DNA of 25,794 nucleotides from a virus. The DNA lies in the IMG/VR virus record IMGVR_UViG_3300030116_005251, positions 1-25,794 of that record. One strand, 5' to 3'. Shown in pieces: positions 4,522 through 15,250 of this stretch. The number at the start of each line of letters is the position of its first letter. The stretch's first letter is position 1. The notes under the pieces were generated by a model. That model did not search any database, was not told where the DNA came from, and saw nothing but the letters and a program-made list of their open reading frames with translations. The position numbers were made by a program, and so were the translations under genes.

Positions 4522-4788
4522 ATGGACACTACAAAATGGAAATCAGTTTTATTACCACGAGATTTGTACGCAGAAGTGAAAACTGCATCACGCATCGAGG
4601 GTCGCACGTTATCTGGTCAACTACGGCTGATTATAGAAACTTGGAAAGCACAAAACTTATCTAAAAAAGATGTCATTATGCTTCAAGAAGAAACTGATGC
4701 GTATAATAAAAAGGTTTTAGCAGAACAGAAAAGAAGAGAGGATAAAAAAACACTTGATCGAATAGACAAGATGTTGGAAAAAGGGTAA
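4522..4788 (+). CDS. Ribbon-helix-helix (Arc/CopG-like) DNA-binding protein
   Basis: This 88-residue protein has an N-terminal ribbon-helix-helix fold. A short beta strand (WKSVLLPRDLY, residues 6-16) is followed by two helices, 'AEVKTASRIEGRTLSGQL' and 'RLIIETWK'. This pattern is typical of Arc/MetJ/CopG repressors, which dimerise so that the paired strands enter the DNA major groove. The C-terminal half is a charged, lysine-rich helix that could form a coiled coil. GGAG lies 8 nt upstream of the ATG. The gene is second in its operon and is closed by a strong terminator at 4845, an arrangement that fits an autoregulated phage repressor. Candidate operators are the GGTATA half-sites upstream of the MTase and DUF932 genes, but that pairing is only inferred. 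Confidence 0.7.
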   Translation: MDTTKWKSVLLPRDLYAEVKTASRIEGRTLSGQLRLIIETWKAQNLSKKDVIMLQEETDAYNKKVLAEQKRREDKKTLDRIDKMLEKG

Positions 4789-7341: not shown

Positions 7342-8805
7342 ATGCTAGGAAATGTTTTAAGTTTATTTGATGGAATTTCTGGTGGTCAAGTTGCTTTAGA
7401 TCGATTAGGTATCAAATATGAAAACTATTATGCAAGTGAGATTGACAAATATGCTATTCAAATTACGCAAAAGAATTATCCCAAGACAATACAAATCGGT
7501 GATGTAACCAAAGTTAAAGCAAGTGACTTACCAAAGATAGATTTACTAATGGGTGGCTCACCGTGTCAAGGATTTTCAATAGCAAATCAAAATCGTAAAA
7601 ATTTAGTATTTAATGAGTATGGTGTTTGTAGTGATGAAAGAAGTAAACTTTTCTTTGAATTTGTCCGATTGTTAAAAGAAACAAAACCTGATTGGTGGTT
7701 TCTAGAAAATGTTCGTATGAAGAAAGAACATATGGAGATTGTCAACAAAGTATTATCTGATGCTGTTGGTTATACGGTAGAACCTTACCTTGTAAATTCA
7801 AGTGTACGAAGTGGGCAAAATCGTTTGCGATACTATTGGACAAACATTCCATTTGAGAATAATCTAGAAGATTGGGGTATTAAATTAAAAGACATACTAG
7901 AACCTATACCGTTTAGTAAAGATTACCCAAACTACTTAAAATTACCGATTGTTAGAAAAAAAAGTGGTGCAACTAAAAAAACAAGAGGTGAGATGGTACG
8001 ATCTATTGATGACGAAAAGTCTTTCACGGTTAATGCGACAATGTGGAAAGGTCAAAAGAGTAGTTATGTTAAAGCACAAGAGGTAAACCCATTTCAAGAA
8101 ATAAAAGAGAATTGGAATCCAAAAGAAACTAAAAATTATGTTCAATGGGATAGTAGTGGTAAAGGGCATAAATCTCAAGACCAAAGGGCATATTTAGAAA
8201 ATTCAAAACACGGTACAATTCCTAGTTCAAATACATCATCAAAAGTTAAAGTTGCGTTTCGACCATGCGAACCAAGAGAGGTAAAAAAAGATACTTTATG
8301 CCATCATGTTGCTGATGCTACTGATATCAATGGACATGATTATTTGAAAAGGGTTTACGGTGGAGAGGGTAAAGCACCTACTCTTACATCAATGGGTGGG
8401 GGGAATACAGAACCCAAAGTGTTAGTTCCACCAAAAGAAGTGCAAGATTGTATCGATCAAGGTATGAAGAATGTTGCTTTTACCGAAACAAGAACAGAAC
8501 AAGCAAAACAATTGCGAAAAGAACATATGGCAAAGTATAAAAAAGACTTTAGTCCAAGAAGAGCCAAAGTTCTGCAACCACGAACCGATGGCAAAATGAA
8601 TTGTATTACAGCATCTATGACAAAAGAACATACCGTAATTGATAACAATTGGTATTATCGCAAACTCACTCCAACAGAATGTTCTAGGTTACAAACATTT
8701 CCTGATGGATATTGCGATGGAGTATCTAATACCCAACAATATAAAGCTTTAGGTAATTCGTGGACAGTTGATGTTATCTGCGAGTTTTTTAAAAATATTC
8801 GTTAA
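7342..8805 (+). CDS. C5 cytosine-specific DNA methyltransferase
   Basis: This 487-residue enzyme transfers a methyl group from S-adenosylmethionine to cytosine C5. Motif I LSLFDGISGG is at residues 6-15. Motif IV GGSPCQGFS carries the catalytic cysteine at residue 75. Motif VI FLENV is at 120-124 and motif VIII QNRLRYYW at 159-166. Motifs IX/X lie in the C-terminus (CSRLQTFPDGY, KALGNSW near 468-474). The spacer between VIII and IX, which holds the target-recognition domain, is long. ATG 7342 was preferred over an in-frame GTG at 7336 because that GTG lies inside the AAGGAG ribosome-binding site. No partner restriction gene is visible, so it probably protects phage DNA from host restriction. 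It heads a long operon. Confidence 0.95.
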   Translation: MLGNVLSLFDGISGGQVALDRLGIKYENYYASEIDKYAIQITQKNYPKTIQIGDVTKVKASDLPKIDLLMGGSPCQGFSIANQNRKNLVFNEYGVCSDERSKLFFEFVRLLKETKPDWWFLENVRMKKEHMEIVNKVLSDAVGYTVEPYLVNSSVRSGQNRLRYYWTNIPFENNLEDWGIKLKDILEPIPFSKDYPNYLKLPIVRKKSGATKKTRGEMVRSIDDEKSFTVNATMWKGQKSSYVKAQEVNPFQEIKENWNPKETKNYVQWDSSGKGHKSQDQRAYLENSKHGTIPSSNTSSKVKVAFRPCEPREVKKDTLCHHVADATDINGHDYLKRVYGGEGKAPTLTSMGGGNTEPKVLVPPKEVQDCIDQGMKNVAFTETRTEQAKQLRKEHMAKYKKDFSPRRAKVLQPRTDGKMNCITASMTKEHTVIDNNWYYRKLTPTECSRLQTFPDGYCDGVSNTQQYKALGNSWTVDVICEFFKNIR

Positions 8806-10809: not shown

Positions 10810-11063
10810 AAGAAATAATTGTTCAAGCTTATCAATATAGTGAATTAGATGATGATGCAAAACATAATGTTAAATGTTGGTTAGATAAAGACGAATCTGA
10901 ATCTTCTGACCCACTTGCTTATCAAAATGAGCCGAAAACGTGGGAATATTACAATAACATGGACGAAAAAGACATCATTGAGCATTGCAACGCTAATGAG
11001 TATTTGTTCAGTATATGGGGTGAGCCGATTCACCATTTAGAAAAAGAAGAGGTCGTAATATGA
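10806..11063 (+). CDS. Hypothetical small acidic phage protein
   Basis: This 85-residue protein starts MKEIIVQAYQYSELDDDAKH, matching a loose pattern ('Y.f.EL...AK..v..w') seen in many short phage proteins of unknown role. It is strongly acidic, a property shared with some DNA-mimic proteins, though there is no specific evidence for that here. GGAGTG at 10796-10801 is its ribosome-binding site. ATGA overlaps at both ends couple it to its neighbours. Confidence 0.7.
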   Translation: MKEIIVQAYQYSELDDDAKHNVKCWLDKDESESSDPLAYQNEPKTWEYYNNMDEKDIIEHCNANEYLFSIWGEPIHHLEKEEVVI

Positions 11064-11413
11064 AAACAAAAGATATTGCATTGCTTAATGAAACGTTGAT
11101 CTTGAATATTGCTAGTGATAAATCATTTAAGCATAAAATTAAACGGTCAATTAATCAGATGGTCGAGGATAAACCTAAAGATTATAGAAAAGTTGATTTA
11201 AATATCCACCTTGAAATTCCAATTGATACGTCTATTGAACCTAATTCAGTACAGTTTATTGATCGGTTAAAGGGTGAGTGTTCACGGCTCTTGAATCAAT
11301 TAATGAAAGATGGAGAATTATCGGTCAATTATCAAATACAAAATAAATTTAGTGATTTAAAAATCGGTAAATTTAAATACGATGGTAGTTTTATTTTAAA
11401 CGATCTCTTATAA
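11060..11413 (+). CDS. Hypothetical protein, last gene of the MTase-side operon
   Basis: This 117-residue protein overlaps the upstream stop by 4 nt. It has a helical first third (IALLNETLILNIASDKSFK), a beta-rich middle (KVDLNIHLEIPIDTS) and a helix-plus-strand C-terminus. No motif is recognised. It is followed by about 260 nt without a gene, and no clear GC-rich terminator is seen after it, only an AT-only hairpin (TTTATTTTT-G-AAAAATAAA) starting near 11416 that lacks a following U-tract. Confidence 0.65.
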   Translation: MKTKDIALLNETLILNIASDKSFKHKIKRSINQMVEDKPKDYRKVDLNIHLEIPIDTSIEPNSVQFIDRLKGECSRLLNQLMKDGELSVNYQIQNKFSDLKIGKFKYDGSFILNDLL

Positions 11414-11457
11414 CATTTATTTTTGAAAAATAAAAAAATAAAAAAAGTCAATTTTTA

Positions 11458-11539
11458 GGTGGGATAGGCGATATGGTGGGATGGTTTTCTTACAAGCCAC
11501 TATTTACAAGGGTTTAGCTTATCCCATTTCATATCGTCA
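11458..11539 (+). repeat. Structured non-coding inverted repeat with TGGGAT/CGATAT half-sites
   Basis: TGGGAT occurs at 11460-11465 and 11477-11482, and its inverse ATCCCA at 11521-11526. CGATATG (11469-11475) pairs with CATATCG (11530-11536). Together they form a stem of 7 + 6 bp with a small bulge and a 38-nt loop. It lies in the gene-free stretch 11414-11672 between the long operon and the accessory array. It could be a structured RNA, a protein-binding array or a recombination/replication site; I cannot choose among these. Confidence 0.55.
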
Positions 11540-11590
11540 GTATACACTAGTTAGGGTTTGTTTTGATGCCGTTTTCACTATAAACGATTT

Positions 11591-11618
11591 TTGAAAAGTA
11601 TTTTTTATTATTTATATA
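11591..11618 (+). promoter_or_regulatory. Candidate promoter before the 34-residue ORF
   Basis: TTGAAA (11591-11596) and TATATA (11613-11618) are separated by 16 bp in a very AT-rich stretch, so chance matches are likely. It would give a leader of about 45 nt containing AGGGGTTTTTTG before the small ORF at 11673. Confidence 0.35.
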
Positions 11619-11672
11619 TTTGGGAATTCATACTATATAGATAGGGGTTTTTTGTAAAGAAAGGAAAAAAGA

Positions 11673-11777
11673 ATGTTTTATTTTTTGTATAGATGGTTTA
11701 AAGAATTTAATAAACCATTGACTAGGGAACAATTGAAAAAGTTATTTGAAAAAAAGAATAAAAAATATACCGATTAG
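11673..11777 (+). CDS. Putative 34-residue basic peptide
   Basis: ATG 11673 follows AAAGGAAAA at good spacing. The frame encodes a 34-residue lysine- and phenylalanine-rich peptide (MFYFLYRWFKEFNKPLTREQ at its start). Its stop codon overlaps the TAGGTAT half-site of the DUF932 operator region. It could be a genuine microprotein or a leader peptide; the evidence is only the ribosome-binding site and position. Confidence 0.4.
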   Translation: MFYFLYRWFKEFNKPLTREQLKKLFEKKNKKYTD

Positions 11778-11841: not shown

Positions 11842-12726
11842 ATGGATTTAATGACTACACGCTCAAATGAATTTATTGATTTAAATGACATTAACACTAA
11901 ATATCATTACAAGGTTAAAACACCATCTATTTTTAACACTAGGCAAAATGATACAACTAGTGATAGATATCAAGTATTTAGTACAATGGATGCTATTAAT
12001 AGACTTGATAAACATGGTTATCTACCTACACAAATTAAACAAGCTTATAGTAGAAAAAACCCTAATCAGACAAATCAATTTCAAAAGCACGTTATTAGAT
12101 TTGCTCATCGTAATCAAGATTTAAGGGCTAAAGAGTATCCTGAAATTATTTTATATAATAATCATCAAGGCGAACAAGCTTTAAGTTTATTGCTCGGATG
12201 TTATCGTTTAGTATGTGATAATGGTCATGTTAGTGGGTACGGTACAAATCAAAAACTAAAGCATTTTCAGTCTAATAAAAATATATTTGATGCAATGGTT
12301 CAAGAAACCATAGATGGCATAAATAAAATGAATAATATTATAGATCGGTTAAAGAGTGTGGATTTAACAGATAATCAAATTTACGATCTAACTAAAAACA
12401 CCATGCAAAATAGATGGGAGTATGCTAATTCTGAACAAGATATGCAGAAAGACGAATTTACAAATCAGTTAATTTCAAAAGCATATTTTAATGATGACAC
12501 TATTAAACAAGTTTCCACACCTAATCGAGTTGAAGATAGTGGAAAAAATGGTTGGAGAGTTTTTAACACTATACAAGAAAATTTTTCTAAACCATTATCA
12601 ATTTTTTCAGTATCTAAACAATCTAAAACGGCTAATATTAGACAATCAAAAGCATTAACGTCTATTGATGATAATAAAGAAATAAATTTAGCAATGTGGA
12701 AATATGCTGAAGAAATTTTAGCATAA
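11842..12726 (+). CDS. DUF932 phage/plasmid-like protein
   Basis: This 294-residue protein matches the DUF932 family. The core reads VIRFAHRNQDLRAKEYPEII at residues 84-103, then NNHQGEQALSLLLGCYRLVC at 106-125, followed by DNGHVSGYG. The pattern 'F.h...DL...E..PEi...NsH.g..a.....G.fRlVC.NG' is characteristic. DUF932 proteins occur on plasmids and in many tailed phages; their biochemical activity is not established as far as I know. A CGGAGA ribosome-binding site precedes the ATG. It has its own promoter with operator-like repeats and its own strong terminator, so it is a self-contained unit. Codon use is very AT-rich. Confidence 0.9.
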   Translation: MDLMTTRSNEFIDLNDINTKYHYKVKTPSIFNTRQNDTTSDRYQVFSTMDAINRLDKHGYLPTQIKQAYSRKNPNQTNQFQKHVIRFAHRNQDLRAKEYPEIILYNNHQGEQALSLLLGCYRLVCDNGHVSGYGTNQKLKHFQSNKNIFDAMVQETIDGINKMNNIIDRLKSVDLTDNQIYDLTKNTMQNRWEYANSEQDMQKDEFTNQLISKAYFNDDTIKQVSTPNRVEDSGKNGWRVFNTIQENFSKPLSIFSVSKQSKTANIRQSKALTSIDDNKEINLAMWKYAEEILA

Positions 12727-13385: not shown

Positions 13386-13583
13386 ATGAATACAAAAACC
13401 AAAAATAAAAAAATAAATAGTTTTTTAAATGTTTTTAATGAAAATAAAAAGTTATTAAAAAATCATAATGAAATAGTTGATTTGCTTTTTAAAATTTCAT
13501 TATTACTAAACCAAAAAAACAATCAAGCCGAAATTAAAATAATTTTAGACCGTTTTTTATTTGAAAGTTTAAACAATAAATAA
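13386..13583 (+). CDS. Hypothetical small basic helical protein
   Basis: This 65-residue, mostly helical, lysine/asparagine-rich protein (FNENKKLLKNHNEIVDLLFK near residues 17-36) has an AGAGGT ribosome-binding site. It is the last gene of accessory unit 2 and is followed after about 20 bp by a terminator. Hydrophobic spacing suggests a helical dimer. No family is recognised. Confidence 0.6.
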   Translation: MNTKTKNKKINSFLNVFNENKKLLKNHNEIVDLLFKISLLLNQKNNQAEIKIILDRFLFESLNNK

Positions 13584-13603
13584 AAGCATTTAATTTTTTT
13601 ATG

Positions 13604-13631
13604 AGCCGTTATTAATTAACGGCTTTTTTTT
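13604..13631 (+). terminator. Intrinsic terminator of accessory unit 2 (AGCCGTTA type)
   Basis: AGCCGTTA and TAACGGCT pair perfectly over 8 bp around a TTAAT loop, followed by eight T residues. Its stem sequence is nearly the same as in the terminators at 14416 and 14801. Confidence 0.93.
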
Positions 13632-13636
13632 GTTTA

Positions 13637-13684
13637 CCGATTAATAAAAAACACTTGCATATCATTCTATAAAATCATATACTA
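13637..13684 (+). repeat. Promoter-containing direct repeat, copy 1 (48 bp)
   Basis: The segment from CCGATTAAT through TTGCAT to TATACTA is repeated at 14451-14497. The only difference is one extra A in the A-tract after CCGATTAAT here. It includes the whole promoter and begins just after a terminator. Confidence 0.95.
13655..13683 (+). promoter_or_regulatory. Repeated promoter upstream of the GP88-like gene
   Basis: TTGCAT (13655-13660) and TATACT (13678-13683) have a 17-bp spacer. The whole element is conserved base for base at 14468-14496, which argues for selection on it, or for recent duplication. Confidence 0.8.
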
Positions 13685-13715
13685 ATAATATTATAAATAG
13701 ATCGGAATTTTAAAC

Positions 13716-14393
13716 ATGTTAAAAACTAACTATAAAACAAAAAACCCTTTATTCTTACTAGATAGATCAATAGCACGTTTTCACTCCCACGGTGAATTGA
13801 TTAATAATACCCACTTAATAAACATATTTACCATTTGTGAAAATTACCCAAAAACAGAATTCACGTTATGGACTAAAAATAAAACAATTGTTTATGATGT
13901 CATTTTAAATAATGGTTATAAAAAACCAAAAAATCTAAAACTAATATATTCAAATGTTAAAGTTAACAAGCCATTAACTACAGTCCCAAACTTTTTTGAT
14001 GGTGTTTTTAACGTGGTTACTCATGATTTTAAAGATAAAAATATTGATATAAATTGCTTTTCAAAGTGTGCAGAATGTAAAATTTGTTATTCTGAAGAAT
14101 TAAAAAATGTTGAAATAATAACCGAAAGAATAAAAAAGAATTCGAAAAAACTAGGTATTTTGGATATTATTTGCCTAGCTTGTTACTCATTCCAATATTT
14201 AAAAATTAGAAAAAATATGATTCCACCCTTGCAGAATAATTCCGATATTTTAAGCAATAGCATTTTAGATATTGACACGTTAAAAAAATACGTCCACGTT
14301 TCAAAGGGATCGGCTAAAATGATAGGTATTGATAGTATTAATACAAATACATTATCAAATAAATTTTGTAATAAAATGCATTCGATAAATTAA
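13716..14393 (+). CDS. GP88-like phage protein, apparently lacking the usual N-terminal part
   Basis: This 225-residue protein resembles the phage 'gene product 88' family. RFHSHGELINNTHLINIF (residues 21-38) matches the family's 'R.h..Gel....hl..i', EFTLWTKN (48-55) is the conserved 'F.lwTKn' strand, and INCFSKCAECKICY (112-125) is the Cys-rich block. The cysteines at 114, 118, 121 and 124 include a CX3CX2C spacing like a radical-SAM cluster motif, though zinc binding is equally possible. The family as I know it normally has an additional N-terminal Cys-containing section, absent here. The gene is alone between its own promoter and terminator. The role is unknown; TIM-barrel relationship is inferred. 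Confidence 0.75.
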   Translation: MLKTNYKTKNPLFLLDRSIARFHSHGELINNTHLINIFTICENYPKTEFTLWTKNKTIVYDVILNNGYKKPKNLKLIYSNVKVNKPLTTVPNFFDGVFNVVTHDFKDKNIDINCFSKCAECKICYSEELKNVEIITERIKKNSKKLGILDIICLACYSFQYLKIRKNMIPPLQNNSDILSNSILDIDTLKKYVHVSKGSAKMIGIDSINTNTLSNKFCNKMHSIN

Positions 14394-14415
14394 TCAATCT
14401 ATTTATTTATAATTA

Positions 14416-14443
14416 AGCCGTTATTAATTGACGGCTTTTTTTT
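14416..14443 (+). terminator. Intrinsic terminator of the GP88-like unit (AGCCGT type)
   Basis: AGCCGTTA pairs with TGACGGCT (one T-G wobble) around a TTAAT loop, followed by eight T residues. It differs from the terminator at 13604 by a single base in the right arm. Confidence 0.92.
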
Positions 14444-14450
14444 ATTTCTG

Positions 14451-14497
14451 CCGATTAATAAAAACACTTGCATATCATTCTATAAAATCATATACTA
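14451..14497 (+). repeat. Promoter-containing direct repeat, copy 2 (47 bp)
   Basis: This is the second copy of the element at 13637-13684, one A shorter in the A-tract. Both copies directly follow an AGCCGT-type terminator, so the repeated unit is really terminator plus promoter, about 80 bp. Confidence 0.95.
14468..14496 (+). promoter_or_regulatory. Repeated promoter upstream of the 14531 gene
   Basis: TTGCAT (14468-14473) and TATACT (14491-14496) with a 17-bp spacer are identical to the promoter at 13655, including the spacer. Confidence 0.8.
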
Positions 14498-14530
14498 CTA
14501 TTAATATTAATAAATTGGAGTGTTTAAAAT

Positions 14531-14773
14531 ATGAATGCATATATTAAATCTAATAATCTAGGTGATGGCTCATTTTCTTTTGATGTTGTAGTAAGTGGTA
14601 ATTATGAATTTTTAGACATTGTGAGACATAAAAATAAACATCTTGATGATTGGAGCGAATTAGATAGCGATTTTAATTTAATTTATTATCCATCGGATCA
14701 CAAAACGGCACTTGAAATTCTTGAAAATGCTAAACAATCAGCGAAAATTATGGTCGATCGTTGGGGATCATAA
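14531..14773 (+). CDS. Hypothetical accessory protein, 80 residues
   Basis: This is the single gene of the last accessory unit, with GGAGTG at 14517-14522. The 80-residue acidic protein has a beta-rich N-terminus (DGSFSFDVVVSGNYEFLDIV) and a C-terminal helix (HKTALEILENAKQSAKIMVD). It is flanked by the repeated promoter and an AGCCGTC-type terminator. No family is recognised. Confidence 0.7.
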   Translation: MNAYIKSNNLGDGSFSFDVVVSGNYEFLDIVRHKNKHLDDWSELDSDFNLIYYPSDHKTALEILENAKQSAKIMVDRWGS

Positions 14774-15036: not shown

Positions 15037-15250
15037 TATAAAAATTTAATCACGGTCAACGGTGCTAGTATCTTTATAAAATAGGGTGGTATGGAATAAA
15101 GGTTGAAAAGGTGCATAAATAGGGCGATTTCAGGCGATGCTTAAAAAATAGGCAATGTATCTTGGCGGACGCATGTAGTTGCATGTTTTTGACAAATAAT
15201 CACATAAAATTCGCAACCAAAATATATAAGATAAAATGGATAATATCGCT

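Follow-up and report, generated by a model that had tools for sequence, protein, structure and literature searches.

A conserved array of short half-sites in a marine phage group as a candidate replication origin of P4/PICI-like organisation

Introduction

The closest described counterparts of the locus analysed here are the replication regions of P4 and of the PICI and SaPI elements. In the GenBank record of P4, the region required in cis for replication (crr) is annotated with type-1 ori repeats at +4314, +4323, -4366, -4384 and +4398, an order of + + - - + in which the first two repeats are 9 bp apart; the region lies just downstream (46 nt) of the alpha gene. These type-1 iterons are bound by the alpha primase-helicase. 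PICI origins always have two sets of iterons flanking an AT-rich region, are located directly 3' of pri/rep, and have an organisation that is stated to be unique among known bacterial replicons (PMC6092414). Every SaPI/PICI element depicted there carries an iteron sequence of its own (Fig. 2 legend of PMC6092414), and the Rep protein of SaPIs binds iterons just downstream of its own gene (PMC7581432).

HTVC023P-type phages are widespread in the ocean (PMC9599517), and the literature that we searched on this group makes no mention of a replication origin. Here we analyse an array of short half-sites in a related ocean phage record, IMGVR_UViG_3300030116_005251, which is a genome fragment of 25,794 nt (the window). 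We infer, with moderate confidence, that the array binds an initiator in cis as a set of iterons, and that it is probably the replication origin or its essential control region, with an organisation like that of P4 and the PICIs.

Results

The array occupies positions 11458-11539 of the window, in a gap between the early operon, whose last gene is 11060-11413, and a promoter-like stretch, a 34-aa ORF and a DUF932 gene. A reading made from the sequence alone (the sequence-only reading) had described the gap as free of genes and the element as unlike any tRNA or known riboswitch; indeed, no ORF of annotated size covers the array, and Rfam and tRNA searches of it returned nothing. That reading had counted two kinds of half-site, whereas we find that the five half-sites are variants of a single 8-bp motif, RRYGNNAY. 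The features of the array and its flanks are as follows (L003 and L004 are contigs with homologous gaps).

11419-11447, no strand: left A-rich tract that partly repeats the right A/T tract in inverted orientation (inverted-repeat arms; kept in L003 and L004)
11458-11465, plus strand: direct half-site 1, GGTGGGAT (sequence; matches the RRYGNNAY/GGYGNNAY triple)
11467-11474, plus strand: direct half-site 2, GGCGATAT, 9 bp after copy 1 (sequence and triple match)
11475-11482, plus strand: direct half-site 3, GGTGGGAT, 8 bp after copy 2 (sequence and triple match)
11483-11520, no strand: spacer of 38 nt between the direct and inverted sets (sequence; spacing statistics)
11521-11528, minus strand: inverted half-site 4, ATCCCATT, reverse complement AATGGGAT (sequence; five-site match)
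11531-11538, minus strand: inverted half-site 5, ATATCGTC, reverse complement GACGATAT (sequence; five-site match)
11579-11645, plus strand: right A/T tract with promoter-like TTGAAA-18-TATATT and a TACTATATAGAT box (about 71-75% identity in distant relatives)
11673-11777, plus strand: small ORF of 34 aa, a neighbour outside the array (ORFs similar in position and sequence in L003 and L004)

The half-site cores are TGGGAT (11460-11465 and 11477-11482), ATCCCA (11521-11526), CGATAT (11469-11474) and ATATCG (11531-11536). Half-sites 4 and 5 have a spacing of 10 bp, and inverted-repeat arms at 11428-11455 and 11594-11621 flank the whole array. The spacer shows a modest AT-richness; the most pronounced A/T tracts are found beyond the array.

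The full five-site pattern has a single match in the window, at 11458. For the triple GGYGNNAY the window likewise gives one occurrence, and 20,000 dinucleotide shuffles of the gap give none. GGYGNNAC was the form in which the motif had initially been recognised in relatives; relaxing its last position to A[CT] once the window had been seen weakens the shuffle test by a factor of less than 10. The left repeat block has no second match in the window at up to 3 mismatches (0.00 expected). A candidate second copy at 15050-15200 was rejected, as it gave only a weak alignment and contains no half-site triple.

The sequence-only reading had also described a bulged stem (CGATATG/CATATCG with TGGGAT/ATCCCA) around a 38-nt loop (11483-11520) and an alternative pairing, TGGGATAGGC/GCTTATCCCA. 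Both are present in the sequence, and the window element folds stably as RNA (z = -3.1), as a structured regulatory RNA switching like a riboswitch between alternative pairings would do. The homologous gaps argue otherwise: a consensus fold computed for the three closest homologues reaches -2.16 kcal/mol with a covariation term of 0.01, and L003 and L004 do not preserve the pairing. In relatives, moreover, copies dispensable for the proposed stem vary in concert with those that pair, and the element has no Rfam match. It is on the consensus fold, with its low energy and lack of covariation, that the RNA reading fails; we consider it largely refuted, and extremely unlikely.

The sequence-only reading had proposed that an absence of conservation in related phages would count against its element. 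What we found is an architecture that is very widely kept in letters that are not. DNA similarity searches with the gap against 50,697 phage records gave nothing relevant, and when relatives were retrieved solely through the adjacent early protein and the DUF932 protein, no more than two homologues were informative. One contig, L002, is practically identical to the window. The gap of L004 has the same framework in other letters (GGCGATAC, GACGGTAC and AATGGTAC, then AGTACCAC and a weaker fifth site), and the L003 half-sites are degraded, with NN doublets that disagree. In both L003 and L004, the flanking A/T tracts, the promoter-like sequence and the small ORF are better kept than the half-sites.

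A search with polA yielded contigs with unmistakable arrays, in which GGCGGTAC, GGCGGGAC, GGCGTAAC or GGTGTAAC is present three times and is accompanied by two inverted copies. The layout recurs in polA- and terS-related contigs: one scan gave 26 matches with a score of at least 32, compared with a best score of 31 in shuffled loci, with the qualification that some arrays were counted on both strands and that L051 is a different case. In a search with terS, a half-site triple was located 190-310 nt upstream of terS in all 73 of the 73 loci that have enough upstream sequence; the scores reach 35, while shuffles give no more than 29, a range that the lowest-scoring loci overlap to some extent. 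Among 87 distinct arrays, the distance from the third direct to the first inverted copy is 36-66 nt by the motif measure (median 37), and 50 arrays have at least 2 exact inverted copies, 36 of these 50 with a further direct copy as well. All 10 of 10 near-complete contigs have one array per genome.

The doublet NN varies between phages, and yet in 92 of 98 arrays the three direct copies share one NN, compared with an expectation of 25% from the pool. Of 31 inverted copies in classes GA, GT and GG, 30 also have this NN; classes TA and TT are indistinguishable in this test because GTNAC is palindromic. Close relatives can differ in NN: L145 (TT) and L171 (TA) have nearly identical flanks and differ in all copies. 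In our reading, NN is a putative specificity tag that would switch between phages together with a partner.

The partner was sought among TerS, the ribbon-helix-helix (RHH) protein, gene X and the primase, and these comparisons in related phages did not reveal a reader of NN. The core of TerS is 100% identical (135/135) in L171 (TA), L145 (TT) and L180 (GT); because NN changes while TerS stays the same, TerS is not the specificity reader. This result bears on the possibility that the array is a pac/cos packaging site, with TerS binding both sets of half-sites and the DNA being cut in the spacer. Its placement immediately upstream of terS in 73/73 loci would suit such a site, as would the A-tracts that flank the array, which we take to resemble the pac of phage SPP1. 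On the other hand, TerS cannot read the doublet, the window, L003 and L004 have the array and terS apart from each other, HTVC027P and 023Pt carry terS on the opposite strand, and full-length contigs run through the array with no ends inside it. A packaging site is therefore improbable.

Gene X, which lies beside the array, covaries with NN in L097-L100 but is not universal, and was rejected as the reader. In the primase there are four GG-class-specific substitutions in a PriCT-like region, which are suggestive only. The near-identical L145 and L151 also differ close to one operon position (L145 4058-5059 versus L151 7758-8174), where the alternatives are a homing endonuclease of the GIY-YIG type, bearing I-TevI-like DNA-binding repeats, and a PDDEXK_14 nuclease.

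Every member of the group has the RHH family, whose nearest-neighbour relation tracks NN best among common families (0.90; 5 of 7 informative loci). It is relevant to the main rival of an origin, namely that the array is an operator through which a phage regulator, for example the conserved early RHH protein (window 4522-4788), represses or activates a downstream middle/late promoter for the later genes. Close tandem sites suit a protein of the RHH type, and in all relatives the array follows the early operon and precedes a conserved promoter-like sequence. Three observations count against an operator. Between L145 and L151/L171 the RHH protein has 100% identity despite their differing NN, and L097, L098 and L100 share an identical RHH core though NN differs, which also led us to reject it as the NN reader. 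The layout of the array copies those of P4 crr and of arrays that adjoin primase-helicase genes, which are replication contexts. Finally, in the window lineage the array stays with the early operon, with terS 3.8 kb away behind other genes. We regard an operator as rather unlikely, though it deserves more weight than a packaging site.

It could also be that NN has no reader at all. A conserved protein would then bind only the framework YG..A, while slippage and template switching between repeats would homogenise NN. In keeping with this, the framework is constant and NN is free, and in the window lineage NN is of two types, GG and AT, in nested order, the copies differing in nested pairs as expected from quasi-palindrome correction. 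A concerted switch of up to 6 separate 8-bp copies over about 100 nt, with the flanks kept, is nevertheless hard to achieve by slippage alone, and we consider this scenario very unlikely. It concerns the evolution of NN only, and is compatible with an origin.

Discussion

Three comparisons, with the layout of P4 crr, with bacterial arrays near replication genes and with the origins of PICIs and SaPIs, together make an initiator-binding origin array the best reading of the locus. The suggestion of the sequence-only reading that repeated half-sites mark a replication or recombination site is supported in its replication form.

P4 crr (ori1) has a short half-site, GGTGAACA, in two direct copies (9 bp), a spacer, two inverted copies and one further direct copy, and the marine array is built in a similar manner. 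The five-site pattern of the window likewise combines several short iterons, some direct (9-bp) and some inverted; both regions have an adjoining A/T tract, and the framework GGTG..A(C) is common to them. There are also differences. The P4 iteron sequence GGTGAACA/TGTTCACC is not matched, since the half-sites of the window are GGYGNNAT and are related only in the framework GGYG..A. The P4 half-sites (TGTTCACC) are one base shorter and face outward, opposite to those of the window relative to the centre, and the window has three direct copies before the spacer rather than the two of P4. P4 crr adjoins alpha, being located between int and alpha, whereas the marine array adjoins terS or other later genes. 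No initiator of the alpha type (D5_N/DUF927) was found in 14 related genomes, the window itself being a fragment. Because neither a cognate initiator nor the exact iteron was found, we do not claim membership in P4 or the PICIs.

A blind, DNA-only pattern search of bacterial genomes gave 67 matches, compared with about 4 by chance, a figure estimated from collection size and pattern length. Nineteen of the 67 are within 3 kb of a gene for a DUF927 primase-helicase, most of them within 400 nt, and the DUF927 domain is often fused to Toprim and a primase zinc ribbon. These arrays (in Pantoea, Yersinia, Proteus, Xenorhabdus and Caballeronia) share with the marine arrays the GGTGTAAC half-site, the 9-bp tandem and the inverted copies, and differ in having more copies and in lying directly downstream of the initiator gene. 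Several other bacterial arrays adjoin DUF6371/zinc-ribbon or AAA genes, and a number are in coding repeats or unrelated places. As a separate observation, GTGTAAC arrays start or separate DUF6371/zinc-ribbon and AAA genes in Bacteroidota loci that resemble mobile elements (L300, L324, L326 and L333; also L299, L322, L328, L329 and L350), and are possibly undescribed origins of these elements.

Four similar arrays, three bacterial and one viral, adjoin tyrosine-integrase genes. Those in bacteria count to some extent against an origin, though P4 crr also lies between int and alpha. They raise the possibility of an attP in which the half-sites would be arm-type binding sites of a tyrosine integrase, and direct and inverted arms around a core do resemble attP. 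Against this, there is no integrase among the genes scanned in the window, which is a fragment, and none is annotated in the shown parts of HTVC027P and 023Pt; an integrase is noted for HTVC022P, not for HTVC027P (PMC12753301). We judge an attP to be highly improbable.

The origins of SaPIs and PICIs resemble the marine array in having two sets of short iterons around a central region. Unlike them, the marine array is not directly 3' of rep/pri, but follows the last gene of the early operon (11060-11413), and its host phages belong to a group that is not known as satellites and has no recognisable Rep.

Nearer relatives of the window are the HTVC023P-type phages. TerL of the window is 61-63% identical to those of Pelagibacter phage HTVC027P and phage 023Pt_psg01, and all three have their genes in the order primase, helicase, PolA, small early genes, terminase. 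The HTVC023P-type phages (HTVC027P, 023Pt_psg01 and HTVC023P) share with the window the genome layout and repeat clusters between replication genes and terS; their half-sites are different, being TGGCACA in 023Pt and ACTAGGAAA in HTVC023P, and a 3+2 order is not evident. In the corresponding gaps of the complete genomes, the clusters are TGGCACA x7 at 13570-13870 in 023Pt_psg01 (L093) and CTAGGAAA x5 at 7776-7870 in HTVC023P (L175); the HTVC027P record has its repeat gap at 14.75-14.95 kb.

If the array is an origin, an initiator from the early replication operon would load on both sets of half-sites and, once loaded, would open neighbouring A/T-rich DNA, starting replication. A weak candidate for the initiator is the archaeo-eukaryotic primase, with its PriCT-like region. 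Counting against an origin, most of the group has the array next to terS and not next to the primase gene, which is about 10 kb before it in the window. In near-complete genomes the strand asymmetry runs monotonically and does not switch where the array lies, and the GC-skew minimum is uninformative, but this test is weak because all genes run one way.

An implication of an origin is that a single, precise and conserved candidate of 80 bp makes both origin and initiator directly testable. The swap of the doublet between otherwise near-identical phages raises the question of which protein reads it. More tentatively, a broad group of lytic ocean phages may use a P4/PICI-type origin with an initiator outside the known alpha and Rep families, the iteron doublet being exchanged among nearly identical phages in the manner of an incompatibility or origin-immunity code, by which co-infecting relatives or satellites would be kept apart.

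Finally, we note several features of the surrounding genome. The small ORFs after the gap (window 11673-11777, MFYFLYRWFKEF...; L003 3780-3912, MLWLLRKFFEWW...; L004 8584-8703, MFWLLEKFLRWF...) are alike, with a hydrophobic/aromatic N-terminus. The adjacent DUF932 protein (phrog_12094; window 11842-12726) has about 24-26% identity to proteins of giant Erwinia and Cronobacter phages, and among the 30 related contigs searched, many of which are fragments, only 3 have it, which suggests a possibly recent gain. In several group members, terS and the first part of a Holliday-junction-resolvase-like gene share ~95-230 nt, read in different frames (window 15311-16048/15816-16352; L097 15894-16583/16489-16923; L151 11530-12195/12056-12520). 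Two near-identical intergenic cassettes, at 13590-13722 and 14402-14535 of the window and also present in L006 and L012, precede accessory genes; each consists of a terminator, AGCCGTTATTAATTAACGGCTTTTT, followed by a promoter-like CACTTGCATATCATTCTATAAAATCATATACT, so that they look like single-gene accessory units with their own promoter and terminator.
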